A DNA stretch of 64,000 nucleotides. Source: Pseudomonas fortuita. GTDB taxonomy: Bacteria; Pseudomonadota; Gammaproteobacteria; Pseudomonadales; Pseudomonadaceae. The stretch covers positions 3,079,501 to 3,143,500 of the forward strand of contig NZ_CP114035.2 of assembly GCF_026898135.2 (NCBI RefSeq), written 5' to 3'. The position numbers were made by a program, and so were the translations under genes. Below are positions 1,557-47,049 of the stretch, piece by piece (position 1 is the stretch's first letter; the number at the start of each line of letters is the position of its first letter). The notes under the pieces are model-generated. The model worked only from the letters and a program-made list of their open reading frames with translations. It searched no databases and had not been told where the DNA came from.

Positions 1557-1576
1557 CATCGTCCGTTCAGACGACG
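1557..1576. promoter_or_regulatory. Island dyad motif S1, apparently bidirectional
   Basis: Minus strand reads GTCTGAACGGACGATG, a full match to the island consensus, ending 73 bases before the crotonase start at 1483. A minus-strand AACAAT at 1536-1531 is suitably placed as -10. Read on the plus strand the same bases give GTC-N6-GACGACG, one change from the GACGATG half, ending 56 bases before the SDR start at 1633, with TAGAGT at 1597-1602 as a possible -10. One site may therefore serve both divergent units. Confidence 0.65.
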
Positions 1577-1632
1577 TGGTCGAGCAGTTTTGTCCCTAGA
1601 GTGGCCCTCAACACAAGCATGAGGAGCGTGCC

Positions 1633-2418
1633 ATGAGTGGTCACTCGGGACTGGATTACAACGGCAAGGTGGTACTGGTCACCGGCGGTACCAAAGGCAT
1701 TGGCGCTGGCATTGCCCGCAGCTATCTGGCCGCCGGGGCCAAGGTGATCGTGTGTGGGCGCAACCTGCCTGAGCAATTGCCGAGCGTGGCTCAGGGCCAG
1801 GCGGACTTCATCGCCGCCGACGTGCGCGACCAGGCCTCCTTGCAAGGCCTGTTTGAGAGCATCCGCAGCAAATACGGCCGCCTCGATGTGCTGGTCAACA
1901 ACGCGGGCGGCAGCCCCTCGGCCGACGCCGCTAGCGCCTCGCCGCGTTTTCATGAGGGGATTATCCGCCTCAACCTGATTGCACCGCTCAATGTCGCCCA
2001 GCAAGCCAACCTGCTGATGCAGGCCCAGGCCGACGGCGGTTGCATCGTGTTTATTGGCAGCATCAGCGGCCTGCGTGCCTCGCCCGGCACAGCGGCGTAC
2101 GGCGCGGCCAAGGCCGGCGTGCTGGCCCTGGTGCAGTCGCTGGCGGCGGAGTGGGCGCCAAAGGTGCGGGTGGTGGCGGTAAGCCCAGGCCTGGTGCGCA
2201 CCGAGCTTGCCCATCTGCACTATGGCGACGCGCAAGGCATCGCTGCGGTCAGCGCCGGTATCCCGGCCGGGCGCATGGCGGTGCCCGAGGACATCGGCAA
2301 CGCCTGCCTCTATATCGCTTCACCGCTGGCCACTTACGCCAGCGGTTGCAACCTGTTGCTGCATGGCGGTGGTGAACGCCCGGCTTATCTCGGTGCGGCG
2401 CAGGCTACCCCGCACTGA
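1633..2418 (+). CDS. SDR-family oxidoreductase of the steroid island
   Basis: A 261-residue classical short-chain dehydrogenase with the NAD(P) motif TGGTKGIG near residue 18, NNAGG and the catalytic YGAAK. It resembles, from memory, Rv3549c of the mycobacterial cholesterol regulon, which lies beside echA20 and ipdAB there. A role as hydroxyacyl-CoA dehydrogenase or hydroxysteroid dehydrogenase is likely but the substrate is not visible. GAGGAGCG precedes the ATG. It is the first gene of a nine-gene plus-strand operon that runs to 11466. Confidence 0.8.
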   Translation: MSGHSGLDYNGKVVLVTGGTKGIGAGIARSYLAAGAKVIVCGRNLPEQLPSVAQGQADFIAADVRDQASLQGLFESIRSKYGRLDVLVNNAGGSPSADAASASPRFHEGIIRLNLIAPLNVAQQANLLMQAQADGGCIVFIGSISGLRASPGTAAYGAAKAGVLALVQSLAAEWAPKVRVVAVSPGLVRTELAHLHYGDAQGIAAVSAGIPAGRMAVPEDIGNACLYIASPLATYASGCNLLLHGGGERPAYLGAAQATPH

Positions 2419-2474
2419 TCGACCCACGTCGGCGTTGCGTTGCGGGCGCCGCTTTGAACACGCAGGAGACGAAC

Positions 2475-3452
2475 TTGGCTGATCCAGAATTGCTATCCAA
2501 AGTGCGCGCCCTGGTTGGGCGCCAATACGGCCGTGTAAACGCCTGGGACGAGGTCAACGCGCCAATGATTCGCCAGTGGTGCGAAGTCATCGGCCTTGAA
2601 AACCCGCTCTACACCGACCCTGTAGCAGCTGCCAACAGCAGCAATGACGGCATCATCGCGCCGCCACCCATGCTGCAGATCTGGTGCATGGAAGGCTTTC
2701 ACATCAATAACTACGCACCAGGCTCGACCACCGAAAACCCCTATGAAGTGCTCGGTGTGATTGAAAGCTATGGCTACCCGTCGGTGGTGGCGGTGAACTC
2801 TGAGCTGACCTTCGAGCGCAACCTGCGCCTGGGCGAAAAGCTCTACTACACCACCCGCCTGGACTCGGTCGGCGAGGAAAAGACCACCGGCCTTGGCACT
2901 GGCTTTTTTGTCACCCTGGTCATGAGCTACTTCTCGCAGCAGGCCACGGGCGACGAAAAAGTCGGCGAGCTGTTGTTCCGGGTGTTCAAGTTCCGCCCGG
3001 CCAACGCGCACAAGGTCCAGGGGCAGCCCCAGGCCGTGGCCGAGCCGGCGCAGGCGAAGCGTCCGGCGCCCGGCGTCAGCGACGACACGCGGTTTTTCTG
3101 GGACGGCTGCAAGGAAGGCAAGCTGTTGATCCAGCGCTGTACGCAGTGCCGCACCTTGCGCCATCCGCCGGCACCGGTGTGCATCGAGTGCCATGGCTTC
3201 GACTGGGATACCCAGCAGGCCAGCGGCAAGGGCCGGTTGTACTCCTTCGTAGTGATGCACTACCCGCAGGTGGCACCGTTCGATCATCCCAACCCGATCG
3301 GTCTGATCGAACTGGACGAGGGCGTACGCCTGATCGCCGGCCTGGTTGGCGTCAAACGTGAAGACATCAGCATTGACCAGCGTGTGGAGGTCGAGTTTCA
3401 GACCTTCGACGACGACCTGGCGCTGCCGATGTTCCGTCCATCGGCACAGTAG
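2475..3452 (+). CDS. chsH2: ChsH2-like MaoC-DUF35 fusion (hydratase subunit and aldolase partner)
   Basis: A hot-dog (MaoC-like) domain at about residues 1-175 is followed by a linker and a DUF35 domain (about 203-325) with a rubredoxin-like zinc ribbon, C222, C225, C236, C239, and an OB-fold. In the known system ChsH2 pairs with ChsH1 to hydrate the C3 side-chain enoyl-CoA, and its DUF35 domain joins Ltp2 for the retro-aldol step. Both partners are encoded in this operon. The start is taken as TTG 2475, because AGGAG at 2464-2468 sits six bases before it; an earlier in-frame TTG (2454) lacks a ribosome site. No ATG start is available near here. Confidence 0.85.
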   Translation: MADPELLSKVRALVGRQYGRVNAWDEVNAPMIRQWCEVIGLENPLYTDPVAAANSSNDGIIAPPPMLQIWCMEGFHINNYAPGSTTENPYEVLGVIESYGYPSVVAVNSELTFERNLRLGEKLYYTTRLDSVGEEKTTGLGTGFFVTLVMSYFSQQATGDEKVGELLFRVFKFRPANAHKVQGQPQAVAEPAQAKRPAPGVSDDTRFFWDGCKEGKLLIQRCTQCRTLRHPPAPVCIECHGFDWDTQQASGKGRLYSFVVMHYPQVAPFDHPNPIGLIELDEGVRLIAGLVGVKREDISIDQRVEVEFQTFDDDLALPMFRPSAQ

Positions 3453-3460
3453 GGGGCACC

Positions 3461-4594
3461 ATGGATTTTGAACTCAGCGAAGAGCAGCGTGCCATCGCCG
3501 AAATGGCGGGCAGCCTGATGAGCGACTACTGCACCGACGAGCGCCTGCGTGACTGGGACCTCTGCGGGCAAGCCTATATGCAAGACCTGTGGCACAGCTG
3601 CGTACAAACCGGCCTGCATGCCCTGGCTATCCCCGAAGCTGCTGGTGGCAGCGGGCTGGGCATGACCGAGCTGGTGCAGATCCTCGATGCCCAGGGCGGT
3701 GCCCTGGCGCAAGTGCCGTTGTGGCGTCACCAATTGGCCGCGACCACCCTCGCCGAGTTCGGCGACAAGGCCCTGGCACCATGGGTGGAACAGGCTGTGG
3801 CGGGCTCAGGCTTGCTGACCCTGAGCCTCGATGGCCTGAACACGGTGCGCGGCATCGAGCTCGAGGCCAGCGCCGAAGAGGGCGGGTGGCGCCTCGATGG
3901 CCGGGTTGCGGCACTCGCGTTGGCCGAGCAGTCGGTGGCAGCGCTGGTACTGGCCCGGGTGATGGGGCAGCCACGGCTGGTTCTGGTAGACCTTGGACAG
4001 TCGGGCATCAGCCGGGTAGCGGGGGTCATGACCCACGGCGAAGCCATTGCTGACCTCAGCTTCAGCGGCGTCACCCTGAACAATCTGCAGGTGCTGCCCG
4101 CCGCGGCCCTGGATTGGCTGGCACCGCGTGCAATTGCCTCCCTGGCGGCCTTGCAGTTGGGCGTCAGCGCCGAGCAGGTGCACCGCACCGTCGCCTATGT
4201 CAGCGAGCGTCAGCAATTCGGCCGCTGTATCGGGAGCTTCCAGGCCGTGCAAATGAGCATGGCCGACACCCATGTGCACCTGGAGGTGTTGCGCAGTGCC
4301 CTGTGGCAATTGTGCTACCGCCTCGACGCCGGTCTGCCGGCCCCTTCGCAGGCCTTGGCCACCGCGTACCTGGCGTGCGAAGCCGGGCACCGCATCGGCC
4401 ACACCGCACAGCATGTGCATGGCGGCATCGGCGTCGACCTGACGTACCCGATCCATCGCTTTCTCTACTGGAGCCGCGCCCTGAGCAGCGCATTGGGAGG
4501 GTCGTCGATGATCCTGGAGCGTCTGGGCGACTGGTTGAGCGATAACACTACCTTGGGATGGAAATATGACCTCGATGAACACCAAGCGCTTTGA
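3461..4594 (+). CDS. chsE1: Acyl-CoA dehydrogenase, ChsE1/FadE28-like
   Basis: A 377-residue acyl-CoA dehydrogenase subunit. The C-terminal half carries RQQFGRCIGSFQAVQ and HVHGGIGVDLTYPIHRF, the FAD-contact segments; the HGGxGxDxTYPxHR form is the one I associate with FadE28. In the family ChsE1 forms an alpha2beta2 enzyme with ChsE2 (here 6194-7363) that desaturates the three-carbon steroid side-chain CoA. GGGGGCACC precedes the ATG. The 3' end overlaps the ChsH1-like gene by 29 bases, suggesting coupled translation. Confidence 0.82.
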   Translation: MDFELSEEQRAIAEMAGSLMSDYCTDERLRDWDLCGQAYMQDLWHSCVQTGLHALAIPEAAGGSGLGMTELVQILDAQGGALAQVPLWRHQLAATTLAEFGDKALAPWVEQAVAGSGLLTLSLDGLNTVRGIELEASAEEGGWRLDGRVAALALAEQSVAALVLARVMGQPRLVLVDLGQSGISRVAGVMTHGEAIADLSFSGVTLNNLQVLPAAALDWLAPRAIASLAALQLGVSAEQVHRTVAYVSERQQFGRCIGSFQAVQMSMADTHVHLEVLRSALWQLCYRLDAGLPAPSQALATAYLACEAGHRIGHTAQHVHGGIGVDLTYPIHRFLYWSRALSSALGGSSMILERLGDWLSDNTTLGWKYDLDEHQAL

Positions 4595-4985
4595 AGACGT
4601 GCGCCCTGGCGAGCAACTGCCCGAGCTGACGATCCCGATCACGGTTGGCCTGATTGCCGGTGGGGCGATAGCCACACGCGACTACTTTCCCGGTCACCAT
4701 GACCTGGACGCGGCGCGCGAGCTGGGTTCGCCCCATATCTTCATGAACATCCTGACCACCAACGGCCTGGTGCAACGCTTCATCGAGCAGTGGAGCGGCC
4801 CGCAGGTTCAGTTCCGTACGCTGAAAATAAAACTGGGCGCGCCAAACTACCCCGGCGACAGCATGACCCTCAGCGGCGAAGTGACCCATCAGGATGCGGC
4901 TACGCGCAGCCTGGAAGTGACCCTCAAGGGCAAAAACTCCATGGGCAATCACGTGACCGGCACGGTCGCGCTGGTTCTGCCTTGA
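4566..4985 (+). CDS. chsH1: ChsH1-like MaoC-type enoyl-CoA hydratase subunit
   Basis: A 139-residue single hot-dog protein with ATRDYFPGHHDLDAA near residues 36-50, matching the ChsH1 stretch that carries the catalytic Asp-His pair. It also has MNILTTNGLVQR and GNHVTGTV. It should pair with the N-terminal domain of the ChsH2-like protein to hydrate the double bond made by ChsE1-ChsE2. It begins inside the end of chsE1 and is followed 19 bases later by ltp2, so the order is chsH2-chsE1-chsH1-ltp2-chsE2 rather than the mycobacterial order. Confidence 0.83.
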   Translation: MTSMNTKRFEDVRPGEQLPELTIPITVGLIAGGAIATRDYFPGHHDLDAARELGSPHIFMNILTTNGLVQRFIEQWSGPQVQFRTLKIKLGAPNYPGDSMTLSGEVTHQDAATRSLEVTLKGKNSMGNHVTGTVALVLP

Positions 4986-5004
4986 TCCGCGGGAGACAAC
5001 ACAG

Positions 5005-6183
5005 ATGACGAATTCGTCGATTTCCGGGCGCGCTGCCATTGCAGGGCTGGGCGCGACCGAGTTTTCCAAGAATTCCGGGCGCACCGAACTGCGCCTGGCC
5101 ATGGAAGCGACCCTGGCAGCGCTCGAGGACGCCGGAATTGACCCTGGCGAAGTGGAGGGTTTCAGTTCCTATTCGGTCGATAAGGTACCGGAGTACGAAA
5201 TTGCCCGCCTGCTGGGCTGCAAAGACGTCAAGTTCTTCTCCCAGGTGCCCCACGGTGGCGGCGCCGCCTGCGGGCCGGTGATGCATGCGGCGATGGCGGT
5301 GGCCACCGGGGTGGCCAAGGTGGTGGTGGTCTATCGGGCGATGAACGAACGCTCCTGGTACCGCTTCGGTACCGGCAGCTATGGCTTTGCCTCGACGCCG
5401 ACCTTCGAGAACGTGAACTACGGCTGGTACATGCCGCACGGCTTTCACACCCCGGCGGCCTGGGTCGGCATGTTTGCCCAGCGCTACATGCACACCTACG
5501 GTGCTACCTCCGAGGACTTTGGCCGGGTGGCGGTGGCAGTGCGCGATTTTGCCGCCACCAACCCCCAGGCATTTTTCTACGGCAAGCCCATCACCCTTGA
5601 AGAACACCAGGCCTCGCGCTGGATCTGCGAGCCGTTGCACCTGCTGGACTGTTGCCAGGAGTCCGATGGCGCGGTGGCCATGGTAATCACCTCGGCCGAG
5701 CGGGCCAGAGACCTCAAGCAAAAGCCCGTGATCATCAAGGCCGGCTCCCAGGGCATCAGCGCGGGGCAACAAGTGATGACCTCCTACTACCGCGACAACA
5801 TCACCGGGCTGCCGGAAATGGGTGTGGTCGCCAAAGAGCTCTACAGCCAGTCGGGCCTGGGCCCGGAGGCGTTGCAGACTGCCGTGATCTACGACCACTT
5901 CACGCCATTCGTACTGCCGCAACTGGAAGAATTCGGCTTTGCAAGGCGCGGTGAAGCCAAGGAATTCATCCGTGCCGGGCACCACGCCCGTGGCGGCAAA
6001 CTGCCAATCAACACCCACGGCGGGCAGTTGGGCGAAGCCTACATCCACGGCATGAATGGCATCGCCGAAGCCGTGCGCCAGGTTCGGGGTACGGCGGCCA
6101 ACCAGGTGGACAGTGTCGAAAACGTGTTGGTGACCGCCGGAACCGGCGTGCCTACCAGCGGCCTGATTCTCGGCGCGGTATAA
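5005..6183 (+). CDS. ltp2: Ltp2-like steroid side-chain aldolase (thiolase fold)
   Basis: A 392-residue SCP-x/thiolase-fold protein. Stretches typical of Ltp2 are FSKNSGRTELRLA near the N-terminus, GGGAACGPVMHAA, FFYGKPITLEEHQ, LLDCCQESDGAVA, and PINTHGGQLGEAYIHGMNG near residue 330. Ltp2 works as a retro-aldolase with the DUF35 domain of ChsH2, releasing the last propionyl-CoA of the side chain to leave a 17-ketosteroid. GGGAGACAACAC precedes the ATG. The match of neighbours (ChsH2, ChsH1, ChsE1, ChsE2) makes the assignment strong. Confidence 0.88.
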   Translation: MTNSSISGRAAIAGLGATEFSKNSGRTELRLAMEATLAALEDAGIDPGEVEGFSSYSVDKVPEYEIARLLGCKDVKFFSQVPHGGGAACGPVMHAAMAVATGVAKVVVVYRAMNERSWYRFGTGSYGFASTPTFENVNYGWYMPHGFHTPAAWVGMFAQRYMHTYGATSEDFGRVAVAVRDFAATNPQAFFYGKPITLEEHQASRWICEPLHLLDCCQESDGAVAMVITSAERARDLKQKPVIIKAGSQGISAGQQVMTSYYRDNITGLPEMGVVAKELYSQSGLGPEALQTAVIYDHFTPFVLPQLEEFGFARRGEAKEFIRAGHHARGGKLPINTHGGQLGEAYIHGMNGIAEAVRQVRGTAANQVDSVENVLVTAGTGVPTSGLILGAV

Positions 6184-6193
6184 GGAGCGTCCC

Positions 6194-7363
6194 ATGTTCG
6201 TCGATCTCACCCCCGAACAGCATGCCCTGAGGCTAAAGGTCCGGGACTATTTCCAGAACCTGATGACCCCCGAGCTTCGCCAGCAGATGCGCGGCACCGA
6301 AGGCGGCGAGCTGTTTCGCCGCACCATCGCCCAGATTGGCCGTGACGGCTGGCTGGCGGTTGGCTGGCCGAAGGCCTATGGCGGCCAGGGTTACGCGGCC
6401 ACCGAGCAATTGATCTTCTTCGAAGAAGCCAACATCGCTGGCGCACCGCTGCCGTTCGTGACCATCAGCACCGTTGGCCCGGCCCTCATGGCCCACGGCT
6501 CGGCGCTGCAAAAAGAAAAATTCCTGCCCGGTATCGCCGCCGGCGAGATCAACTTTGCCATCGGCTACTCCGAAGCCAGTGCCGGCAGCGACCTGGCCGT
6601 GCTGAAAACCACCGCGCGCGAAGACGCCGACGGCTTTTTGGTCAACGGCAGCAAACTGTGGACCTCGGGCGCCGACTCGGCCGACTACATCTGGTTGGCG
6701 GCACGTACCGACCCGGAGCAGGCGCGGCACAAGGGCATCTCGATCCTGATTCTCGATACCCAGGCCGAAGGCTTCTCCAGTACGCTGATTCCAACCTCCG
6801 GCAACCCCACGGCCGCCACGTATTACGATAACGTGCGGGTGCCGAGGGATATGCTGGTGGGCGAACTGCACGGTGGCTGGAAACTCATCACCGCACAGCT
6901 CAACCACGAGCGCCTGGGCCTGGGTGCCTGGTCGGACAAGGTCGTCAGCCTGTTCAGCCGGGTGTACCTGTGGGCACGTTGTGCCGATGAGCAAGGCCAG
7001 CGTGCTACCGACCACGCCTGGGTGCGCCGCGATCTGGCCGAGTGTTATGCCCGGCTCGAAGCCATGCGCCTGATCAACTTCCGTATTGCCGCCGACCTTG
7101 AGCGGGACCGCGTCGATGTCGCGCTGGCCTCGACCACCAAGGTCTACGGCTCGGAATCGGCGATCGAGATCCTGCGCAAGCTGTCGGCCATCGTCGGTGC
7201 CAGCGGCTTGACGCGGGCGGGCTCTGCGGCGGCTTATCTGCTCGGCGAGCTGGAGTATGAAGTGCGCGCCTCGGTGAACCTGACCTTCGGCGGTGGTACC
7301 AATGAAATCCAGCGCGAGTTGATTGCCCAGTTCGGCCTGGGCATGCCGCGCACGCAACGCTGA
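6194..7363 (+). CDS. chsE2: Acyl-CoA dehydrogenase, ChsE2/FadE29-like
   Basis: A 389-residue acyl-CoA dehydrogenase starting MFVDLTPEQ, with WPKAYGGQG near residue 57, IGYSEASAGSDLA (about 123-135), KHKGISIL-type loop, and LTFGGGTNEIQRE near residue 365. The N-terminus and the TFGGGxNE ending resemble FadE29, the partner of FadE28. AGGAGCG precedes the ATG. The canonical YEGT glutamate is replaced by FGGGT, as expected for an enzyme that places its catalytic base elsewhere. Ten bases separate it from ltp2. Confidence 0.83.
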   Translation: MFVDLTPEQHALRLKVRDYFQNLMTPELRQQMRGTEGGELFRRTIAQIGRDGWLAVGWPKAYGGQGYAATEQLIFFEEANIAGAPLPFVTISTVGPALMAHGSALQKEKFLPGIAAGEINFAIGYSEASAGSDLAVLKTTAREDADGFLVNGSKLWTSGADSADYIWLAARTDPEQARHKGISILILDTQAEGFSSTLIPTSGNPTAATYYDNVRVPRDMLVGELHGGWKLITAQLNHERLGLGAWSDKVVSLFSRVYLWARCADEQGQRATDHAWVRRDLAECYARLEAMRLINFRIAADLERDRVDVALASTTKVYGSESAIEILRKLSAIVGASGLTRAGSAAAYLLGELEYEVRASVNLTFGGGTNEIQRELIAQFGLGMPRTQR

Positions 7364-7417
7364 GTCACCGTTGTACCCTTGAAGCGAATAACAATAACGT
7401 CCCTTTCAGGTGAACGA

Positions 7418-8605
7418 ATGAGCGCAATCGAGCAGTTCAGGCAAGCGACGCGCCAATGGCTGGAGGCCAATTGCCCGCCATCGCTGCGCACGCCCACCCC
7501 CGACGGCGAAATCGTCTGGGGTGGCCGTCAAGTAGACTTTCCCAGCGAAGACGCCCGGCTCTGGTTCGAGCGTATGCGTGACAAAGGCTGGTTCTGCCCG
7601 CAATGGCCCAGCGAATACGGCGGGGGCGGGTTGAGCGCCGAGTACAACGCGGTGCTGGAAAGCGAGCTGCGCCGGCTAAAGTGTCGGCCCGCGCAGATCA
7701 ACCTGGGTATCTGGATGCTTGGCCCGGTGCTGTTGGAGTTCGGTAGCGAAGCGCAGAAACAGGCGCTGCTGCCACCGATGTGTCGTGGTGAGGTGCGCTG
7801 GTGCCAAGGCTTCTCCGAACCCAATGCTGGTTCCGACCTCGCCAGCCTGAAAACCTCGGCGGTGGCCGATGGCGATGACTTCGTGATCAACGACACCAAG
7901 ATCTGGACTTCCTATGGCGACAAGTCCGACTGGATGTACGCCTTAGTGCGCACTGATCCGAAAGCGCCCAAGCACCAGGGGATCAGCCTGATCGTGCTGG
8001 ACATGAAAAGCCCTGGGGTGAGTGTTTCACCGATTGACCTGATCAGCGGCAAATCGGCTTTCTGCCAGGTATTCTTCGATAACGTGCGCGTTCCGCAAAG
8101 CCAGTTGATCGGGCCGCTCAACGGTGGCTGGAACCTGGGCAAGAGCCTGCTGCAGCACGAGCGCAAGGCCATGTCCAAGTTCGGCGAGTTCAGCCTGCCC
8201 ACGCACTTTCACCTGCTGCCGTTGATCGAACGCTACCTGCCCGACAGCCAGGCGCCTGACGACCAGGCCCTGCGTGCTCGGGCCCAGGCCTGCGCGATGA
8301 ATGAACAGGCCTACAACCTCACCGTGCAGCGCATGGGCGAGGAGGCCCGGGCTGGCCTGGATATCAGCGCGATCATGGCCATCATGAAACTGGTGCATAC
8401 CGAGCAGGAACGCGACAAGTTCGAGATTCTCCTCGATGCCCTTGGCTACCGCGCGCTGGGCGTTGAAGGCGAGCCGTTCAGCGGCCAGGAACTGGCGATT
8501 ACCCGAGGCTGGCTCAACAGCTATGCCCTGACCATTTCCGGCGGTTCGTCGGAGGTGCAGTTGAATGTCATCGCAAAGCGGGTCTTGAACCTGCCCAGTG
8601 CTTGA
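7418..8605 (+). CDS. Acyl-CoA dehydrogenase, large subunit of second steroid side-chain pair
   Basis: A 395-residue acyl-CoA dehydrogenase with FSEPNAGSDLASL, IWTSYGDKSDW, FDNVRVP and a C-terminal SGGSSEVQLNVIAKRVLNLP. Start 7418 follows AGGTGA. With the next gene it forms a heteromeric pair of the kind used for steroid acyl-CoAs. Since chsE1-chsE2 already serve the last cycle, this pair may act in the first cycle on the five-carbon bile-acid side chain (the Scd1AB step known from Pseudomonas Chol1). That assignment is inference. Confidence 0.78.
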   Translation: MSAIEQFRQATRQWLEANCPPSLRTPTPDGEIVWGGRQVDFPSEDARLWFERMRDKGWFCPQWPSEYGGGGLSAEYNAVLESELRRLKCRPAQINLGIWMLGPVLLEFGSEAQKQALLPPMCRGEVRWCQGFSEPNAGSDLASLKTSAVADGDDFVINDTKIWTSYGDKSDWMYALVRTDPKAPKHQGISLIVLDMKSPGVSVSPIDLISGKSAFCQVFFDNVRVPQSQLIGPLNGGWNLGKSLLQHERKAMSKFGEFSLPTHFHLLPLIERYLPDSQAPDDQALRARAQACAMNEQAYNLTVQRMGEEARAGLDISAIMAIMKLVHTEQERDKFEILLDALGYRALGVEGEPFSGQELAITRGWLNSYALTISGGSSEVQLNVIAKRVLNLPSA

Positions 8606-8618
8606 GGGGAGTGTGAAC

Positions 8619-9773: not shown

Positions 9774-9777
9774 GAAC

Positions 9778-11470: not shown

Positions 11471-11489
11471 TTAGTCTTTCCGGACGATG
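11471..11489 (+). promoter_or_regulatory. Island dyad motif S2 before the DUF1329 gene
   Basis: TTAGTCTTTCCGGACGATG, the clearest copy of the consensus. It ends 66 bases before the ATG at 11556, and AACAAT at 11509-11514 is placed as a -10 element, putting the dyad centre near -42. It starts four bases after the ligase stop, so the DUF1329 gene has its own promoter. Confidence 0.7.
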
Positions 11490-11555
11490 TACTCCCCCGC
11501 AGATCAGGAACAATGGAGGTACCCCAGTAGTCCTGGTCTGCGAAGGAGCCAACCG

Positions 11556-17440: not shown

Positions 17441-17456
17441 CATCGTCCATTCAGAC
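17441..17456 (-). promoter_or_regulatory. Island dyad motif S3 before the MFS-hsaD unit
   Basis: Minus strand GTCTGAATGGACGATG, ending 60 bases before the GTG at 17380. The -10 region at 17420-17415 (CACGCT on the minus strand) is weak. It lies back to back with motif S4, 36 bases away, which faces the other direction. Confidence 0.6.
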
Positions 17457-17492
17457 CACTTGCTTGCGGCACAGCGGGCAAGCGCGGCTGCG

Positions 17493-17510
17493 TAGTCTTA
17501 TCGGACGATG
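17493..17510 (+). promoter_or_regulatory. Island dyad motif S4 before the SDR-SDR-SnoaL-OYE operon
   Basis: TAGTCTTATCGGACGATG, ending 97 bases before the ATG at 17608. GTTAAT at 17528-17533 or TAATGA two bases later can serve as -10. Matches the island consensus throughout. Confidence 0.65.
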
Positions 17511-25606: not shown

Positions 25607-25618
25607 TGGCCGCTGTTC

Positions 25619-25636
25619 TAGTCAAAATGGACGATC
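25619..25636 (+). promoter_or_regulatory. Island dyad motif S5 before the second aldolase pair
   Basis: TAGTCAAAATGGACGATC: GTC-N6-GAC intact, last base C instead of G. Ends 71 bases before the ATG at 25708. The -10 region near 25657 (CATGGT) is poor. Confidence 0.6.
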
Positions 25637-27993: not shown

Positions 27994-28012
27994 TTAGTCT
28001 CAACGGACGATG
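27994..28012 (+). promoter_or_regulatory. Island dyad motif S6 before hsaC-ipd operon
   Basis: TTAGTCTCAACGGACGATG, ending 63 bases before the ATG at 28076, with CACAAT at 28033-28038 as -10. The dyad centre falls at about -42 from the start point this predicts. Upstream (27897-27960) a short GATGC tandem and a degenerate REP-like stretch (TCGCGGGGCAAGCCTG) occupy the intergenic space. Confidence 0.7.
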
Positions 28013-28075
28013 AGCACCAGGCCTGCCCTCAGCACAATGAAGACCAACAACGGTCCAGTCATTGAGGAGCAGGGC

Positions 28076-37796: not shown

Positions 37797-37813
37797 GCCT
37801 TGCCACAACCGAC

Positions 37814-37832
37814 CCCGTCCGTTTTGACGATG
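37814..37832 (+). promoter_or_regulatory. Island dyad motif S7 before ipdF
   Basis: CCCGTCCGTTTTGACGATG: GTC-N6-GAC and the ATG are kept, the first G of GGAC is T. Ends 61 bases before ATG 37894, with TTATAC at 37852-37857 as a good -10. Confidence 0.65.
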
Positions 37833-38679: not shown

Positions 38680-38688
38680 GGGCACCCC

Positions 38689-39159
38689 ATGAGCACCCGA
38701 TTCTGTAGCGCCGAGCAAATGCTCAAGGCCCAGGGCCTGGACCTGGGCGTCACCGACTGGCTGCAGCTGACCCAGGCGCGGGTCAATCTGTTCGCCGAAG
38801 CCACTGGCGATCAGCAGTGGATACATGTCGACCCTGAGCGCGCCGCCAATGGCCCGTTCGGGGCGTGCATCGCCCATGGCTACCTGACCCTGGCCCTGGC
38901 CAACCTGTTCATGCCGCAGTTGATGAGCATCGACAACATGGCCATGGGGGTGAACTACGGCACCGACCGCGTGCGTTTCCCCGCCGTGGTGAAAGTCGGT
39001 GCGCGGGTACGCGGCCGAGGGCAGGTCATCAGTGCCGAGCTGATCGGCAGCGCAGTTCAGCTGGTGGTGCGCATCAGCGTCGAGATCGAGGGCGCCGAAC
39101 GCCCTGGCTGCGTGGTCGACACCATCAGCCGTTACACCTTCAATCCCGTCACCGAGTGA
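38689..39159 (+). CDS. MaoC/NodN-type enoyl-CoA hydratase
   Basis: A 156-residue single hot-dog (R)-specific hydratase with the catalytic pair in [11 protein letters not shown] (D41, H46), [15 protein letters not shown], and [14 protein letters not shown]. The length is normal for the stand-alone family. Lying between ipdF and a thiolase, it probably hydrates an enoyl-CoA of the C/D-ring pathway. GAGGGC precedes the ATG nine bases after the ipdF stop. Confidence 0.84.
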
Positions 39160-39167
39160 GGCTGTTC

Positions 39168-40376: not shown

Positions 40377-40403
40377 CCCGCGGTTCTGTCTATCGGCACC
40401 GGG

Positions 40404-40422
40404 TTAGGCCATTTGGACGATG
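40404..40422 (+). promoter_or_regulatory. Island dyad motif S8 before YCF48-MMPL-luxR operon
   Basis: TTAGGCCATTTGGACGATG: one change in the upstream half (GGC for GTC). Ends 96 bases before ATG 40519; GACTAT at 40443-40448 fits as -10. As the regulator gene is the third gene of this operon, the site would give positive autoregulation if the regulator binds it. Confidence 0.62.
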
Positions 40423-40518
40423 TCCCGCAGGTCGAGCAGACGGACTATCTACACACCTCAGACACCGCGCCTGGGTGGCGCGGTGATTCACGACTACAAG
40501 AACAAGAGGGTGGACCGT

Positions 40519-41562
40519 ATGTCTATTGTCGAGCGCCTGGATGTCGCTGCACGCAGTCGCCCATGCGCCAAGCTTATTGCCTATTTCGTGTGCATTACGG
40601 TCGCCGCAATCGTTGCGCTGGCATTTACCCCACGCGGCGCGCTGAACATCGCCCAGACAACGCTGAATACCGAGCGCATGCAGATAAACGGCCTGCTCAA
40701 TCTGGGCAGCCGTCAGGTGGCGGTGGGTGAGCGCGGAACCATCCTGATCAGCGATGACCGCGGCCGCACCTGGCAGCAAGCCACGGTCGAGCCGCAACGC
40801 CAGATTTCCCTGACGGCTTTGACCGCGTTGAACCCCGAGCAATTGGTAGCCGTTGGCCAGGACAGCCTGATTCTGCGCTCCAATGACGCTGGCAGCAGCT
40901 GGCAAGAGGTCCAATTTGATGCCGCAGCAGGCGAGCCGTTGCTCGGTGCATGGGCGGCCGGTGGCGAGCAGGTCGTGGTATTCGGCAGCTACGGCAAGTT
41001 CTACCAGTCTGAGAATGCCGGACGCAGCTGGCGCGCGGTGGCGCTGGAGGTCGACCGTGCCCATCTCAATGCGCTGGATGGCGGTAGCGATGGCCGACGC
41101 ATGTTGGTCGGCGAACAGGGCCTGGTCATGCGCAGCGCCGATAACGGGCAGCATTGGCAACAGTTGCCGGCATTCTATAACGGCTCACTGTTTGGCGTGG
41201 TTCGCCTGAGCGCCCAGCGTTGGGTGACCTACGGCATGCGCGGCCATGTGTTTGTGACCGACAACTTCGGTGAGCAGTGGCAGGCGATCAAGGTCGGCAA
41301 TACCCAGCCGCTTTATGGCCATGTTGTGCTGCCAGACCACAGCGGCGTACTGATTGTCGGCGGCGGCAGCTCGATGGTGCGCCTGGACGCACAAGGCCGC
41401 TTGATCGGCACCACCCGGCAACCGGGGTTGGGCACCTTGACCTCAGCCATCGTGGTGGGCACCGATCAGTTGCTGGTAGCCGGTGAACGGGGCGTTTTCC
41501 AAGGGAACGGTAACAGCGTTGCCTCACTGGGCAAAGGAGAGCAAAGTCATGAAGTACGCTAA
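40519..41562 (+). CDS. YCF48-type beta-propeller, membrane-anchored
   Basis: A 347-residue protein with one N-terminal membrane segment (about 19-37, IAYFVCITVAAIVALAF) and a large periplasmic part made of BNR/YCF48 repeats. Recurring cores are VGERGTILISDDRGRTWQQ, VGQDSLILRSNDAGSSWQE, FGSYGKFYQSENAGRSWRA and VGEQGLVMRSADNGQHWQQ. Such propellers accompany RND permeases in hydrophobic-substrate clusters and may act as their periplasmic partner. Start 40519 is preferred; the frame is open to 40420 without a ribosome site. It overlaps the permease gene by 14 bases. Confidence 0.8.
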   Translation: MSIVERLDVAARSRPCAKLIAYFVCITVAAIVALAFTPRGALNIAQTTLNTERMQINGLLNLGSRQVAVGERGTILISDDRGRTWQQATVEPQRQISLTALTALNPEQLVAVGQDSLILRSNDAGSSWQEVQFDAAAGEPLLGAWAAGGEQVVVFGSYGKFYQSENAGRSWRAVALEVDRAHLNALDGGSDGRRMLVGEQGLVMRSADNGQHWQQLPAFYNGSLFGVVRLSAQRWVTYGMRGHVFVTDNFGEQWQAIKVGNTQPLYGHVVLPDHSGVLIVGGGSSMVRLDAQGRLIGTTRQPGLGTLTSAIVVGTDQLLVAGERGVFQGNGNSVASLGKGEQSHEVR

Positions 41563-43939
41563 AGCGCGGTCCGGGCGCTTGGTCGAGCGTTGCGCCGACC
41601 TGCTGTTGGCACGACGCAAACTGCTGTTGACGGTATTCCTTTTGCTGACCCTGGGGCTGGGCTACAGCGCTACCCACACCCAGCTCGACCCCGGCTTCAA
41701 CAAGCAGATCCCGGTGCGGCATGAGTACATGCTCAACTTCCTCGAATTCAGCCAGTACTTCACCGGCGCTAACCGCTTTCTGGTGAGCGTTAGATGGAAG
41801 GGCGAAGGCGACATATACAACCCCGAGTTTCTCGACACGCTGCGCAAGGTGACTGACGATGTGTTCTTCATCAACGGCGTCAGCCGCGCCAGCGTAACCT
41901 CGCTGTTCACCGCCAACGTGCGTTACATCGAAATCACCGAAGAAGGCTTTTTTGGTGATGTGGTGGTACCGCCACGCTTCACCGCGAGCGCCGAAGACCT
42001 GGCTCAGGTGCGCAGCAACGCCGCGCGCTCCGGGCAGGTCGGGCGGCTGGTGGCCAATGACCTTAAGTCGGCGATGGTCCGTGCCGATTTACAGGACGTT
42101 GACCCACAAACAGGCAAATCGGTCAGTTATGTTGAAGTCGCCAAGCGTCTGGAGGACATTCGCGACAAGTACAGCAGCGATCAGATCGAGATCAACATTG
42201 TCGGTTTCGCCAAGCTGGTGGGTGATGTTGTCGAAGGGCTGATGACCGTGATCGGCTTTTTTGTCGTCGCCTTCCTGATCACCGGCCTGCTGCTGTGGCT
42301 CTATTCACGCTCGTTGCGCCTGACCGTAGTGGCGCTGTTGGTGGCTTTGCTGCCGGTGGTGTGGCTTTTGGGCTTGTTACCGCTGATGGGCCTGGGTATC
42401 GACCCGATGTCGATACTGGTGCCGTTCCTGATTTTTTCCATTGGCGTTTCGCACGCCGTGCAGATGACCAATGCCTGGAAACAGGAAGTGCTGGCCGGCA
42501 AGGATTCGCTGCAGGCGGCGCAACTGGCCTTTTGCAAGATCTTCATTCCTGGCTCCCTGGCGTTGCTGATGAATGCCTTGGGCTTTGGCGTGATCATGCT
42601 GATCGACATCCCTATCGTGCATGAACTGGGGGTCACGGCCTGTATCGGCGTGATGCTGATGATCATCACCAACAAGCTGATGTTGCCGATCATTATTTCC
42701 TACCTGCGCCTGGAGCGTAGTGTGCTGAGCAAGGAGTGCGTCCAGCAGCAGGGAAGGCACCCGCTGTGGTGGCGCTTGTCGGCGCTGGCCGAACCGCGCC
42801 CGGCCCTGGCGGTGCTGGCGCTCAGCCTGATGTTGCTGAGCGTGGCGGTGCTCAAGGCCCGGCAGCTGGAAGTCGGTGACATCGGTGCTGGCGCGCCAGA
42901 GTTGCGCGCCGAGTCACGTTACAACCAGGACAACACGAAAATTGTCAGCAGCTACTCCATCGGCCTGGATGTGCTGGCGGTGTTTGTCCGGGCTCAGGGG
43001 CTGGAAGAGGCGTGCCTGTCACCGTCGGTGATGCGTGCGGTGGAAGCCTTCGACTTCCAGATGCGCAGCGTCACCGGCGTGCAGTCGGTGCAGTCGGTGG
43101 CCGGCTTTGGCAAGACGGTGATTGCCGGCAACAACGAAGGCAACCCACGTTGGGCGGCCATTCCTGGGTCGGCCCGGGGCTTGAGTCAAGGTGCCCGTGC
43201 CTACATGCCCGAGGACGGCCTGGTGACCGATGGCTGCCAGCAGATGCAGATTCTGGTGTTTCTCACCGATCACGATGGCGCCACGGTCTCGCATGTGGTC
43301 CAGGAGGCCAAGCGGATCATTGCCCAGGTCCAGGTGCCGGAAATCAGGTTCTTTCTCGGCGGTGGCAATGTGGGGGTAATGGCGGCGTCCAATGATGCGG
43401 TCAAGCGCGCCGAAGTGCTGATGCTGGTGGCGTTGTTTGGCTCGGTGCTGTTGTTCTGCTGGTTGACCTTCAAATCGTTGCGCGCGGTGTTGTGCATCCT
43501 GGTGCCGCTGGCCATCGTGGCGGTACTGTGCAATGCACTGATGGCCATGCTTGGCATCGGGTTGAAGGTGGCGACCCTGCCGGTGATGGCGCTTGGGGTT
43601 GGCGTCGGGGTTGACTACGGCATTTACCTGTATGAGCGGATCCAGCACGAAATGGCCGAGGGCGCCAACCTGCGCCACGCGTTCTACCAGGCCATGTGCC
43701 AACGCGGAACAGCGGCCGTTTTCACTGCCCTGACCATGGCGATCGGGGTGTGCACCTGGGCCTTTGCACCGCTGAAATTTCAGGCCGATATGGGGGTCTT
43801 GCTATCGTTCATGTTTCTGGTCAATGTACTTGGGGCAATTTTCCTGCTGCCGGCCTTGGCCGCCTGGTTCAACCTCGGCAAACCCCTGGTTGCGGTCAAA
43901 GCGAACCGTGCAGCGCGCGCGCACGTGTTTGAATCATAA
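41549..43939 (+). CDS. RND/MMPL-family permease
   Basis: A 796-residue RND-superfamily protein (MMPL/patched-like). TM1 lies near residues 25-43. After a periplasmic loop come five clustered segments (about 225-400, with LLPLMGLGIDPMSILVPFLIFSIGVSHAVQ). The second repeat has TM7 near 435, another loop, and segments about 635-780 (VMALGVGVGVDYGIYLYE). No membrane-fusion or outer-membrane partner gene is adjacent; the YCF48 propeller is instead. It may move steroid across or out of the inner membrane. AAAGGAGA eight bases upstream fixes ATG 41549. Confidence 0.85.
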   Translation: MKYAKARSGRLVERCADLLLARRKLLLTVFLLLTLGLGYSATHTQLDPGFNKQIPVRHEYMLNFLEFSQYFTGANRFLVSVRWKGEGDIYNPEFLDTLRKVTDDVFFINGVSRASVTSLFTANVRYIEITEEGFFGDVVVPPRFTASAEDLAQVRSNAARSGQVGRLVANDLKSAMVRADLQDVDPQTGKSVSYVEVAKRLEDIRDKYSSDQIEINIVGFAKLVGDVVEGLMTVIGFFVVAFLITGLLLWLYSRSLRLTVVALLVALLPVVWLLGLLPLMGLGIDPMSILVPFLIFSIGVSHAVQMTNAWKQEVLAGKDSLQAAQLAFCKIFIPGSLALLMNALGFGVIMLIDIPIVHELGVTACIGVMLMIITNKLMLPIIISYLRLERSVLSKECVQQQGRHPLWWRLSALAEPRPALAVLALSLMLLSVAVLKARQLEVGDIGAGAPELRAESRYNQDNTKIVSSYSIGLDVLAVFVRAQGLEEACLSPSVMRAVEAFDFQMRSVTGVQSVQSVAGFGKTVIAGNNEGNPRWAAIPGSARGLSQGARAYMPEDGLVTDGCQQMQILVFLTDHDGATVSHVVQEAKRIIAQVQVPEIRFFLGGGNVGVMAASNDAVKRAEVLMLVALFGSVLLFCWLTFKSLRAVLCILVPLAIVAVLCNALMAMLGIGLKVATLPVMALGVGVGVDYGIYLYERIQHEMAEGANLRHAFYQAMCQRGTAAVFTALTMAIGVCTWAFAPLKFQADMGVLLSFMFLVNVLGAIFLLPALAAWFNLGKPLVAVKANRAARAHVFES

Positions 43940-43947
43940 CAATAAAA

Positions 43948-43974
43948 GCGGGCACGGCCTGGGCTGTGCCCCGC
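43948..43974 (+). terminator. Hairpin between permease and luxR genes
   Basis: GCGGGCAC (43948-43955) pairs with GTGCCCCGC (43966-43974, one bulge). No T-run follows; the regulator's ribosome site GAGGAG starts just after. It may lower expression of the regulator relative to the permease, or protect the mRNA end. Confidence 0.5.
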
Positions 43975-43987
43975 GAGGAGACGGGCG

Positions 43988-45238
43988 ATGGGAAATTCCA
44001 CCGTGGGGTTTGGAGCGCTGGCAGAAATGGGTATGGAGCTGGCTGAATATGACACGCTCATCGGCGAGTTCTATGACGGCTCGCTGAACCACAAGTTGAT
44101 GGCCAAGACCTTGCGCCACGTACGCAGCCTGTATCAGGCCAATTACGTCACCTTGATCTTGCGAGTGCCAGAGCAACCTGACCTGGGCCTGATGATTGTC
44201 GTCGGTGACATCGAAGGCGAGGGGGAGGTGAGTTACTGGGCCTACCCACAAGCTGTTACCCCCTTCAGCAACCCGCCGATGGACCAGGTGTTCACCGTCG
44301 AAGACCTGATGACCGAAGCCGAGTGGGCCAATTCGGTCTACTACAAGACCTACGGTACCGTGCACGACACCTACCACATCATGGGTGCCGACGTTTCAAC
44401 TCCCGATGGCGGCAAGCTGCGGTTTCGCATTACCCGGCCCAAAGCCGCGCTGAAATTCACCGCCTCCGAGCGCACCCTGTGTGAAATGATCCTGCCGCAT
44501 TTGCGCCGTGCGATGCACGTGCACAACCTGCTCGATCGCAGCGAGTCGATCAGCGAGCTGTATGCCCAGGCCATCAGCCGCCTGTCAGTGGCCACCATCG
44601 TGCTTGACCAGAGTGGCAGCGTGCTGCGCCTCAACCCGGTGGCCAGCGAACTGCTGGAACAGGCGGACGGCCTGAAACTGGTGGGTGGGCGCCTTGAAGC
44701 CACCTATCCCAGCGACAACCGCGAACTGCAGCGCCTGGTACGCAATGCCTTCGCGCGTGACGTCAATAGCGAAAAGGTCAGCACTGCGGCCGAAGCGATG
44801 TCGGTGGCCAGGCCATCGGGCCAGGTCAACCTGGGGGTAGTGATCGAGGCCATTCCGACCCAGGACTGGGCCGAGGGTAAGAGCAAACCTGCGGTGGTGG
44901 TATACATCCGCGACGCGGTTGGCCGCTCTATGGCTAGCGAAACGGTAACCAAGCAACTGTTCAACCTGACCCGGGCCGAAACCGCACTGGCCATGGAGCT
45001 GGCTAACGGCCTGTCGCTTGAAGAGGCCGCCGAAGTATTGAATGTGCGCCGCAACACCGCACGGGCGCATTTGCGCTCGATCTTTTCAAAGACGGGTGTG
45101 CGCCGCCAGACGGAGTTGGTGCGCATCATTCTCAACAGTGTGGTTGCCTTGGGAAAGCCCAAACTGGCAGCACTGCCAAACGACAAGCCGGAAAAACCGG
45201 TGTTGAAGCTGGCCACCCCGGCGCGCAATAGCGCCTGA
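43988..45238 (+). CDS. LuxR-type transcriptional regulator, candidate activator of the island
   Basis: A 416-residue protein with a C-terminal LuxR/GerE helix-turn-helix (about 322-385: NLTRAETALAMELANGLSLEEAAE, VLNVRRNTARAHLRSIFSKTG). A PAS-like middle region lies near 190-300 (LDQSGSVLRLNPVASELL). There is no autoinducer-binding or receiver signature. It resembles in layout the TesR-type activator of Comamonas steroid genes. It is the only regulator gene in the 49-kb island, and the repeated dyad near -42 is what a dimeric LuxR-type activator would need. GAGGAG precedes the ATG. Link to the motif is inference. Confidence 0.83.
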   Translation: MGNSTVGFGALAEMGMELAEYDTLIGEFYDGSLNHKLMAKTLRHVRSLYQANYVTLILRVPEQPDLGLMIVVGDIEGEGEVSYWAYPQAVTPFSNPPMDQVFTVEDLMTEAEWANSVYYKTYGTVHDTYHIMGADVSTPDGGKLRFRITRPKAALKFTASERTLCEMILPHLRRAMHVHNLLDRSESISELYAQAISRLSVATIVLDQSGSVLRLNPVASELLEQADGLKLVGGRLEATYPSDNRELQRLVRNAFARDVNSEKVSTAAEAMSVARPSGQVNLGVVIEAIPTQDWAEGKSKPAVVVYIRDAVGRSMASETVTKQLFNLTRAETALAMELANGLSLEEAAEVLNVRRNTARAHLRSIFSKTGVRRQTELVRIILNSVVALGKPKLAALPNDKPEKPVLKLATPARNSA

Positions 45239-45258
45239 CCTTCGCCCCGCTTACCCGA

Positions 45259-45293
45259 ACGCCCCGGTCCTGTTTGCAAGGCCGGGGCGTTTT
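45259..45293 (+). terminator. Rho-independent terminator of the luxR operon
   Basis: A 9-bp GC stem, ACGCCCCGG (45259-45267) with CCGGGGCGT (45282-45290), followed by TTT. The T-run runs directly into dyad motif S9. Confidence 0.85.
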
Positions 45294-45310
45294 AGTCCGT
45301 GCGGACGATG
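45292..45310 (+). promoter_or_regulatory. Island dyad motif S9 before hsdA
   Basis: TTAGTCCGTGCGGACGATG, a full consensus match. Ends 60 bases before ATG 45371, with CAATAC at 45331-45336 as -10, so the dyad centre lies near -42. It overlaps the tail of the preceding terminator. Confidence 0.7.
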
Positions 45311-45370
45311 TTGTGGGGTTTGCGCGGCACCAATACTAGCCAGCACCACCATTCAACAAGGAGCAACGTT

Positions 45371-46135
45371 ATGCCAGTTACAGCGGTCAGCGGTTCTGCA
45401 TCCGGTATCGGTGCGGCAGTCTGCCAGGCGCTACGCGCCGCCGGGCACCGCACCATCGGCATCGACCGGGCAAATGCCGAGGTGATTGCCGACCTGTCCA
45501 GCGCAAGCGGGCGCCAGGCCGCCATCAGTGAGGTGCTCGAGCACTGCGACGGGGTGCTCGACGGCCTGGTGTGCTGCGCCGGGGTCGGCTCCAGCGCGGA
45601 ATCCAGTACTATCGTGTCGGTCAACTACTTTGGTGTCTGTGAGCTGCTTGACGGCCTGGCCGATGCACTGGCCAAAGGCGAAAGGCCAGCCGCTGTAGTG
45701 ATCGGATCGATTGCCGCCACCCATGTGAACCCGGATCAGCAGCCGATGATTGCGGCCATGCTGGCCGGCAACGAAGCGCTGGCGCTGGAACACGCCAATA
45801 CGTTGGGGCAGTCCCATGTGGCCTATGCCAGTTCCAAATACGCCGTGACCTGCAATGCCCGTAGCAAGGCGGTTGCCTGGGCAAAACAAGGCATACGCCT
45901 GAATGTGGTGGCGCCTGGGGCAGTCGAGACACCGTTGCACCAGGCGTCTCTGAACGATCCACGCTTTGCCAAGGCGGTCCGTGAGTTTGTCGCACCGCTG
46001 GGGCGCGCCGGCAACCCTGAGGAGATCGCCCAGGTCGTGGCATTCTTGCAGTCGACTCAAGCCAGTTTTGTCCACGGCACTGTGATGTTTGTAGATGGCG
46101 GTATGGATGCCATGGTTCGTCCGGCACGTTTCTAG
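45371..46135 (+). CDS. hsdA: 3-alpha-hydroxysteroid dehydrogenase/carbonyl reductase (HsdA)
   Basis: A 254-residue SDR. SGSASGIGAAV near residue 7 binds NAD; GIDRANAEVIADLSSASGR, DGLVCCAG, VSVNYFG, S113 and Y152-x3-K156 form the active site; DGGMDAMVRP ends the protein. The AEVIADLS stretch and the VNYFG helix fit the Comamonas testosteroni 3-alpha-HSD/CR closely. It oxidises the 3-alpha-hydroxyl of bile acids to the 3-keto form, an entry reaction. AAGGAG precedes ATG 45371. This is the strongest single pointer to a steroid with a 3-alpha-OH as substrate. Confidence 0.88.
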   Translation: MPVTAVSGSASGIGAAVCQALRAAGHRTIGIDRANAEVIADLSSASGRQAAISEVLEHCDGVLDGLVCCAGVGSSAESSTIVSVNYFGVCELLDGLADALAKGERPAAVVIGSIAATHVNPDQQPMIAAMLAGNEALALEHANTLGQSHVAYASSKYAVTCNARSKAVAWAKQGIRLNVVAPGAVETPLHQASLNDPRFAKAVREFVAPLGRAGNPEEIAQVVAFLQSTQASFVHGTVMFVDGGMDAMVRPARF

Positions 46136-46158
46136 CCTATGTACACGTGAGAACAACA

Positions 46159-46992
46159 ATGACCAAAGTGGCATTCATTACCGGGGCAAGCCGCGGTATC
46201 GGGCGCGAGACGGCATTGGCCTTTGCCCGGGCCGGGTTCGATGTGGCGATCAGTGCCCGCACTGTTGAGGAGGGCGCAAGCACAGTGCATCGGCTGTGCG
46301 ATGCCCAGGGCGTGCCCCTGGCGGGCAGCCTCAACAGTACGGCAGCCGCGATCCGCGCCTTGGGGCGCAAGGCGTTGGTGGTGCCTATGGATCTGCTCGA
46401 CAGCGCCTCGGTACTGGCCGCCGGGCAGGCAGTACTGGCGGCGCTCGGGCGCATCGATGTGCTGATAAACAACGCCATCTACCAGGGTCACGACCTCAAC
46501 AGCGCATTCATGTCGCTGCAGCCGCAGACCATGCAGCGGGTATTCCAGGGTTATGTGCTGGCGCCGCTGTTGCTGACCCAGACCGTGTTGCCCGGCATGC
46601 TCGAACGGGGCGCCGGGGTGGTGATCAACGTCACCTCCGGTGCCGGTGAAGGCGACCCGCCTGTGGCCGCCGTCGACGGTGGCTGGGGCTATGCGTACGG
46701 TGCCGGCAAGGCTGCGGTCTCCAGGGTCTCGGGGGTGCTTGCAGCCGAACTGGGCGAGCAGGGGATTCGCGCCTTCACGCTCAATCCGGGGGTGGTCACC
46801 ACTGACGCGCTGAAGGCCACGATCGGTGAGAACGGCGTGCTGGCCATGCGCATCGGCACTGCGCCTCCCCAGGTGCCGGCAGAGGTGATGGTGTGGCTGG
46901 CCACCCACGATCAGGCCGCGCGCTTTCAACGGCGCACCATCGCCGCGCAGGCGTTTGCGCTGGAGCACGGCATCGTCGCCAACTGGCGATGA
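46159..46992 (+). CDS. SDR-family oxidoreductase downstream of hsdA
   Basis: A 277-residue SDR with TGASRGIGRETALAFARAG near residue 8, NNAIYQGHDLNSAF where NNAG is usual, an insert GEGDPPVAAVDGGWG before the catalytic YGAGK, and NPGVVTTDALKA. I cannot name the substrate. Co-transcription with hsdA makes a ring hydroxyl or an acyl-CoA side-chain carbinol plausible. ATG 46159 is chosen on homology; an in-frame GTG at 46147 has no better ribosome site. Confidence 0.75.
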   Translation: MTKVAFITGASRGIGRETALAFARAGFDVAISARTVEEGASTVHRLCDAQGVPLAGSLNSTAAAIRALGRKALVVPMDLLDSASVLAAGQAVLAALGRIDVLINNAIYQGHDLNSAFMSLQPQTMQRVFQGYVLAPLLLTQTVLPGMLERGAGVVINVTSGAGEGDPPVAAVDGGWGYAYGAGKAAVSRVSGVLAAELGEQGIRAFTLNPGVVTTDALKATIGENGVLAMRIGTAPPQVPAEVMVWLATHDQAARFQRRTIAAQAFALEHGIVANWR

Positions 46993-47015
46993 ACACTGGC
47001 TGAAGAAGTACTCGT

Positions 47016-47049
47016 GGTGCTCATCTAGTCCATGCGGAGGATGAGCACC
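47016..47049. repeat. 10-bp inverted repeat enclosing dyad motif S10
   Basis: GGTGCTCATC (47016-47025) and its exact complement GATGAGCACC (47040-47049) enclose the S10 motif. The right arm overlaps the GATG end of the motif. It could be an operator for a second factor, a cruciform, or the transcript-end hairpin of the SDR gene. Confidence 0.75.
47025..47043 (+). promoter_or_regulatory. Island dyad motif S10 before kshA
   Basis: CTAGTCCATGCGGAGGATG: consensus except GAG for GAC. Ends 71 bases before ATG 47115, with GAAGAT at 47064-47069 as a possible -10. Confidence 0.6.

Follow-up and report, generated by a model that had tools for sequence, protein, structure and literature searches.

How are the operons of the steroid-degradation cluster of Pseudomonas fortuita switched on, and by which protein? 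The cluster lies in the window analysed here, by which we mean the whole stretch of 64,000 nucleotides of contig NZ_CP114035.2 (positions 3,079,501 to 3,143,500). A first-pass annotation had described ten copies of a short dyad ahead of its genes, all of which are present at the positions given there, and had attributed them to the product of the gene at 43988. In this study, we show that the dyads are real and conserved, and most likely form the operator set of a steroid regulon. Their direct reader is most likely the 43988 protein, a LuxR-type regulator that would act as an activator. This attribution is supported, at the level of sequence comparison, by the co-occurrence of motif and regulator family, a hexamer in phase with the dyad, the rarity of good -35 boxes and the recurrence of the motif in other genera. 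A compact operator shared across genera offers a testable regulon, a means of finding steroid pathways by promoter scan and a sensor part for steroid biosensors. Moreover, it bears on whether regulators of the TesR/TeiR type contact DNA themselves or signal through a kinase cascade.

The dyads of the window and their consensus

The operators and the genes of the regulator's own set are the following (SDR, short-chain dehydrogenase/reductase; MFS, major facilitator superfamily; AMP, adenosine monophosphate).

1557..1576, best on minus (TCGTCTGAACGGACGATG), second reading plus: operator in the gap between a hydratase gene (698-1552, minus) and an SDR gene (1633-2418, plus); hexamers AACAAT (minus, 1536-1531) and TAGAGT (plus, 1597-1602).
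11471..11489, plus, TAGTCTTTCCGGACGATG: operator upstream of a DUF1329 gene; hexamer AACAAT (11509-11514).
17441..17459, minus, TGGTCTGAATGGACGATG: operator of minus-strand MFS transporter, alpha/beta hydrolase and flavin oxidoreductase genes; hexamer weak (CACGCT); orthologous sites in five other genomes.
17492..17510, plus, TAGTCTTATCGGACGATG: operator heading SDR (17566), SnoaL, flavin oxidoreductase, AMP-ligase, beta-lactamase fold and DUF1302 genes.
25618..25636, plus, TAGTCAAAATGGACGATC: weaker operator (site 25619), thiolase-like and MaoC/OB-fold genes behind it.
27994..28012, plus, TAGTCTCAACGGACGATG: operator of the HsaC-like extradiol dioxygenase operon; hexamer CACAAT (28033-28038).
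37814..37832, plus, CCGTCCGTTTTGACGATG: weaker operator, SDR, MaoC and thiolase genes behind it.
40404..40422, plus, TAGGCCATTTGGACGATG: operator ahead of BNR-MMPL-LuxR, the regulator's own gene set.
40420..43939, plus: BNR/Ycf48-like and MMPL genes with the regulator downstream, apparently one run behind the 40404 operator.
43988..45238, plus: likely cognate LuxR-type regulator, 416 residues (Pfam GerE).
45292..45310, plus, TAGTCCGTGCGGACGATG: operator directly past the regulator gene, an SDR gene ending at 46135 behind it; hexamer AATACT (45332-45337).
47025..47043, plus, TAGTCCATGCGGAGGATG: weaker operator upstream of KshA; right half degenerate in some relatives.

The first-pass annotation had named equal frequency in shuffled or unrelated DNA as the finding that would speak against the motif. 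With up to three mismatches, the 19-mer first described is matched 14 times in the window, compared with 3.11 +/- 1.70 times after shuffling, and none of 100 shuffles reached 14. A matrix built from 79 sites of other genomes gave its 11 highest scores in the window to the ten sites (11 orientations, as 1557 counts in both); the weakest listed site scores 14.9, against a best of 11.2 in the reversed control. Its training sites were chosen in those genomes for closeness to the consensus, so that the test is held out by sequence and not by the idea of the motif. A matrix of 31 beta-proteobacterial sites returned the same top 11 (weakest 15.3, control 12.9), and four other stretches of the same genome (60 kb; L090-L093) peaked at no more than 12.5 by matrix. 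Over the whole genome, the 19-mer at up to three mismatches shows no excess (518 matches, 699 in the reversed control), and in this plain form it was rejected as a genome scan; the signal therefore resides in the strong matches. At up to one mismatch there are at least five genomic sites and, among the matches listed, all five lie inside the window; the window scan also gives two-mismatch sites on minus, at least two of which are absent from the listed matches.

The strong sites are beyond doubt, and 25619, 37814 and 47025 are weak singly and unevenly kept by relatives. One of 20 Markov resamples reached 15.5 with the beta-proteobacterial matrix, which puts 25619 and 37814, each taken alone, near noise. 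Among related genomes (G numbers) and loci (L numbers), site 25619 has identical letters in G015 (L173) and was not found in G244 (L183). Site 37814 is kept in L009, L010 and L175, weak in L179 and not found in L016, L018 and L184. Site 47025 scores 14.3-19.1 in L009, L011, L012, L013, L016, L018 and L111, 7.4 in L174 and 2.0 in L010. The 40404 site is identical in L009, L013, L016, L018 and L111 and one base off in L178. A further weak minus-strand match at 53868-53886 (TAGTCAAACCTGACGATC, score 12.8-13.5), inside an open frame without a Pfam match, is probably due to chance.

As first written, TTAGTC-N5-GGACGATG, the 19-mer is too strict, even though its core GTC-N6-GACGATG is shared. Three of the ten sites match it exactly, two with one mismatch, four with two (including 1557, read on minus) and one, 37814, with four. 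Both GTC and GAC are kept in eight sites, 40404 having GGC and 47025 GAG; site 25619 terminates in GATC. The improved consensus is TMGTC-Y-N4-R-GACGATG. The free columns of 41 non-redundant exact sites read TAGTC-[CT]-N4-[AG, once T]-GACGATG, and the left half is TGGTC or TCGTC at MFS and hydratase promoters. Site 1557-1576, in its divergent gap, fits minus (two mismatches) better than plus (four). This minus reading points to the enoyl-CoA hydratase at 698-1552, with 73 bases to its start codon. The distances from site end to start codon, for start codons of our choice, run from 56 to 97 bases, in line with the earlier description. In three target genes (11487, 28010 and 40420), the GATG of the operator supplies the ATG that is the first start of the listed reading frame. 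The HsaC family match begins at residue 26, and gene callers may thus set the start inside the operator.

Recurrence in the source genome and in other genera

The regulon had been put at 49 kb, an understatement: the 12 known sites extend over some 57 kb. The source genome holds nine exact copies of TAGTC-N6-GACGATG, six of them within genome positions 3069323-3124810 and the remaining three of the form TAGTCG...CGACGATG. Two of the six, found with the improved consensus, lie 7-10 kb before the window, on minus at genome position 3069323 and on plus at 3072614. Genes for a flavin reductase (HsaB-like), an SDR and an FAA hydrolase follow one of them, and the other heads HsaA-like, two FAD (flavin adenine dinucleotide)-binding (one KstD-like) and KshB-like genes. 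Labels such as HsaB, KstD and KshB are our own assignments, based on Pfam domains and general knowledge of the pathway. The exact HsaB site is accompanied, some 31 bases upstream, by another dyad, which is symmetric (TCGTCCAAGTGGACGATC on minus; L089, 9856-9871) and falls in the region between this site and a divergent aldehyde dehydrogenase gene; a similar dyad occurs in L010.

Outside Pseudomonas, the exact motif is found 9-13 times each, with no match in the controls, in Zoogloea dura, Aromatoleum diolicum and three metagenome-assembled genomes (MAGs; SZAS-78, Zoogloea sp. and Paucimonas sp.); nine of the 55 copies in these five genomes have the background form TAGTCG. In the stretches examined, sites stand before orthologs of HsaA, HsaB, HsaC, MFS, DUF1329 and SDR genes, some having no recognised gene behind them. 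A Caballeronia record shows five places scoring 18.7-27.0 (control 7.9), of which one precedes orthologs of HsaA-KstD-KshB and another HsaC. On plasmid plas1 of Vibrio alfacsensis (L193), with a 52% homolog of the 43988 protein, the top three places score 25.7, 25.0 and 20.7 (control 7.7), and one of them lies in a divergent hydratase/SDR gap, like 1557 in the window. This plasmid of a fish-associated Vibrio carries a large steroid-type cluster together with regulator and operator. A count over 1.67 Mb, mostly regulator flanks and including some duplicates, gave 138 copies of TAGTC-N6-GACGATG and none of its reversed control.

Within Pseudomonas, the motif accompanies the regulator. Among 249 genomes, the 39 with a homolog of at least 40% each hold 3-12 refined motifs (TAGTCYNNNNDGACGATG; mean 7.1), compared with 0-2 (mean 0.13) in the other 210. 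Up to seven regulator candidates were scored per genome, absence of a homolog meaning none at E<=1e-30 among those, and G225, with a 35% homolog and zero refined sites, was placed among the 210. The regulator table predates the pattern. The pattern was set after sites from several of the same genomes had been seen, so that the clean separation of 39 from 210 is partly tuned. The exact TAGTC-N6-GACGATG was rejected as a co-occurrence test; its means are 9.67 (21 genomes), 7.5 (18) and 2.37 (209), and the ranges overlap because of the TAGTCG background form. The same operator is also found with 39-43% homologs in Pseudomonas clusters of differing gene order.

Promoter layout and the six-base centre

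The position of a -10-like hexamer relative to the dyad was counted with column 0 at the T of TAGTC, which puts the dyad centre at column 7.5; the hexamer sought has A at position 2 and T at position 6. In 88 sites, those of the window included, it starts at column 38 in 64, at 39 in 17 and at 37 in four, with none at 37-40 in three. In the 79 sites of other genomes, the remaining columns from 22 to 61 each show it in at most six. The hexamer had been placed 17-20 bases after the GATG, and the offset has to be corrected to usually 20 or 21. Hexamers of the window match TATAAT at 2-4 of six positions, the one of 17441 at two. If the hexamer spans -12 to -7, as -10 hexamers do, transcription would start at about column 50, and the dyad centre would fall at about -42.5. 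The predicted geometry thus agrees with the centre near -42 and the class II activation proposed before. Matches to the -35 box at four or more of six positions occur in five of 85 sites, about 11.6 being expected at random. This layout is that of a promoter which would need an activator in the class II position.

The same boxes bear on whether 43988 might instead be a repressor, sitting on the dyad without steroid and blocking the polymerase, like KstR in Actinobacteria. We regard this as quite improbable. The dyad does overlap the place of the -35 box, and a likeness to the -35 at three of six positions is seen in 59 of 85 sites (35.4 at random), an excess to which the TG of the motif itself may contribute. 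However, better -35 matches are rarer than random, dyad and hexamer keep an almost constant spacing, as activators need, and TesR/TeiR are described as positive regulators in the available portions of PMC8399759, PMC13101464 and PMC6895838.

The six bases at the centre of the dyad are partly specific to the promoter. In 73 pairs of orthologous promoters from beta- and gamma-proteobacteria, agreement of the centre is 0.667, compared with 0.412 under permuted labels (reached in 0 of 1000 permutations). The left half (0.997 vs 0.944), the downstream stretch (0.381 vs 0.314) and the hexamer region (0.489 vs 0.412) also exceed permutation, and the upstream flanks are at chance (0.286 vs 0.285). The pairs, which are not independent, come from 53 sites in chosen families with a BLAST-supported downstream gene of at least 50% identity; two Zoogloea sites with the centre TCAACG, for which there was no BLAST row, are not among them. 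The placement of two MAGs was our choice: SZAS-78, whose title says only Proteobacteria, was counted with the beta group, and Paucimonas (G253) was not. These figures leave hardly any room for the idea that the copies are due to chance or shared ancestry, as leftovers of promoter DNA that was duplicated within a single transferred island. The clusters are indeed related, and their downstream stretches are slightly more alike in orthologous pairs. Yet the upstream flanks are at chance while the dyad is kept, which largely contradicts this idea, and the 138 copies against an empty reversed control speak against it too.

The centre of the HsaC promoter is TCAACG in eight of nine sites and CCAACG in the ninth; TCAACG precedes HsaC in four Pseudomonas genomes, Aromatoleum and two MAGs. 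Pseudomonas has CGCTTT at HsaA where the beta set has CGTTCA, and the centre at SDR2 varies. TCAACG is also found ahead of the AMP-ligase in Aromatoleum and of another gene in G244, and TTTCCG precedes DUF1329 in Pseudomonas, yet the AMP-ligase in Zoogloea and SZAS-78. The conservation of the centre suggests that it is under selection, possibly tuning affinity for each operon. Tentatively, and at rather less than even chances, we propose that the module travelled with steroid catabolism through beta- and gamma-proteobacteria, the centre serving as a promoter-specific dial for affinity or firing order and the regulator as a direct DNA-binding steroid sensor that needs no kinase cascade. The link of centre and gene is not strict, as TCAACG elsewhere shows, and this has slightly lowered our expectation of such a dial.

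The candidate regulator and known systems

The 43988 product has a C-terminal LuxR-type GerE helix-turn-helix (HTH; PF00196, 24.3 bits, cut-off 23.5), a region nearly constant across 112 aligned homologs. Its predicted structure has a mean predicted local distance difference test score (pLDDT) of 78.8 and a predicted template modelling score (pTM) of 0.53, so that the placement of its domains is uncertain. In this model the N-terminal part resembles GAF and LasR ligand domains by fold matches. The middle part, with no Pfam PAS match, may be PAS-like to judge from secondary structure and VqmA fold matches. The protein is the sole match to itself in its own genome at E<=1e-5. In some genomes (G042, G204 and G538) two to five paralogous regulators of the family are found, two of those of G042 adjoining each other (C27:37153-39665).

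From these data we infer binding, activation, start points, a ligand and autoregulation as follows. The dyads would be the operators of a TesR/TeiR-like sensor with GAF-like, PAS-like and HTH parts. A dimer of the 43988 protein would sit on the imperfect dyad, centred about 42.5 bases ahead of the start point, and so stand in for a proper -35 box. Once a steroid or a pathway intermediate occupies the sensor part, the dimer would engage sigma-70 RNA polymerase in the manner of a class II activator. One regulator could thereby switch on the steroid operons and, via the 40404 site, its own gene.

Several observations weigh against this reading. Co-occurrence by itself does not single out the regulator among the genes of the cluster. 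No site at up to one mismatch was found in the 20 kb around a 34% homolog in G225 (L109), nor in the 20 kb around the 42% and 37% homologs of G538 (L189, L190); the steroid-type cluster of L109 may depend on another operator. TCGTC sites outnumber TAGTC sites in three genomes of the Zoogloea order, and the frequent three-of-six likeness to the -35 box has been mentioned above. In addition, the available part of a review (PMC6678751) calls TeiR a polar membrane kinase acting via phosphorylation.

The dyad might accordingly belong to another co-inherited regulator, such as a histidine-kinase system, a LysR protein or one encoded elsewhere, with the LuxR protein a bystander or acting upstream. 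The cluster genes co-occur, hence presence and absence are undecisive, and a hybrid histidine kinase is encoded at 49546. We nevertheless judge this unlikely. Among 140 loci longer than 9 kb, LuxR is found in 110, the histidine kinase in two, GGDEF in one and the two LysR in none and one, these loci having been fetched mostly through LuxR. The motif stays with the 39-43% homologs in clusters of different gene order, and the dyad form suits a dimeric GerE protein. We thus retain the 43988 protein as the most probable direct reader.

Among known systems, the closest is TesR/TeiR, a LuxR-type positive regulator of Comamonas testosteroni (PMC8399759, PMC13101464 and PMC6895838, these and the following sources being available in part). 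TesR is needed to induce tesB-tesR, tesA1-tesG and tesA2-ORF18 (PMC6895838), and the likely counterparts of these three clusters, by our assignment, carry the motif in the window. Both regulators share the LuxR-type HTH and a gene position downstream of ring-degradation genes that start with a meta-cleavage gene: 43988 lies downstream of the HsaC-like 28010, as tesR lies after tesB in the reported gene order (PMC13101464). By gene order and domain, 43988 is likely a member of the TesR family. P. stutzeri Chol1 lacking a teiR-like gene is said, with reference to unpublished data, to grow on cholate with a delay (PMC8399759), and tesR-like genes have been said to be confined to C. testosteroni strains (report cited in PMC6895838). 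None of the 120 entries in each of three listings bears the name TesR or TeiR, names being missing or shortened in many of them. TeiR is described as a polar membrane kinase; the model of 43988 shows a GAF-like, a PAS-like and an HTH part.

Class II activation by LuxR-type proteins is already known. The likeness to a lux-box that had been pointed out stands for geometry, with a centre near -42.5 and few good -35 boxes, and fails for sequence. The half-sites here are TMGTCC/CATCGTC, asymmetric with fixed polarity and unlike the lux-box sequence, and compared with class II regulators of the LuxR/LasR type 43988 has an extra PAS-like part. VqmA, which is among the fold matches at low TM-scores, likewise joins a sensor to a LuxR-type HTH, but its chains have 215-227 residues without the large N-terminal GAF-like part, and its regulon is a different one. 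KstR/KstR2 of Actinobacteria resemble the present system in that one regulator family governs several steroid operons; they differ in being TetR-type repressors. Homologs of KstR are absent from bile-acid-degrading Proteobacteria according to the available part of a review (PMC8399759). In agreement with the earlier statement that the operator had not been published, we found no description of one for this motif or the TesR/TeiR family in the literature searched, mostly open papers, partly accessible, with the original TeiR paper not among them. Judged by this literature, three things appear to be new: the operator, the range of genera in which it occurs and a centre that is in part specific to the promoter.

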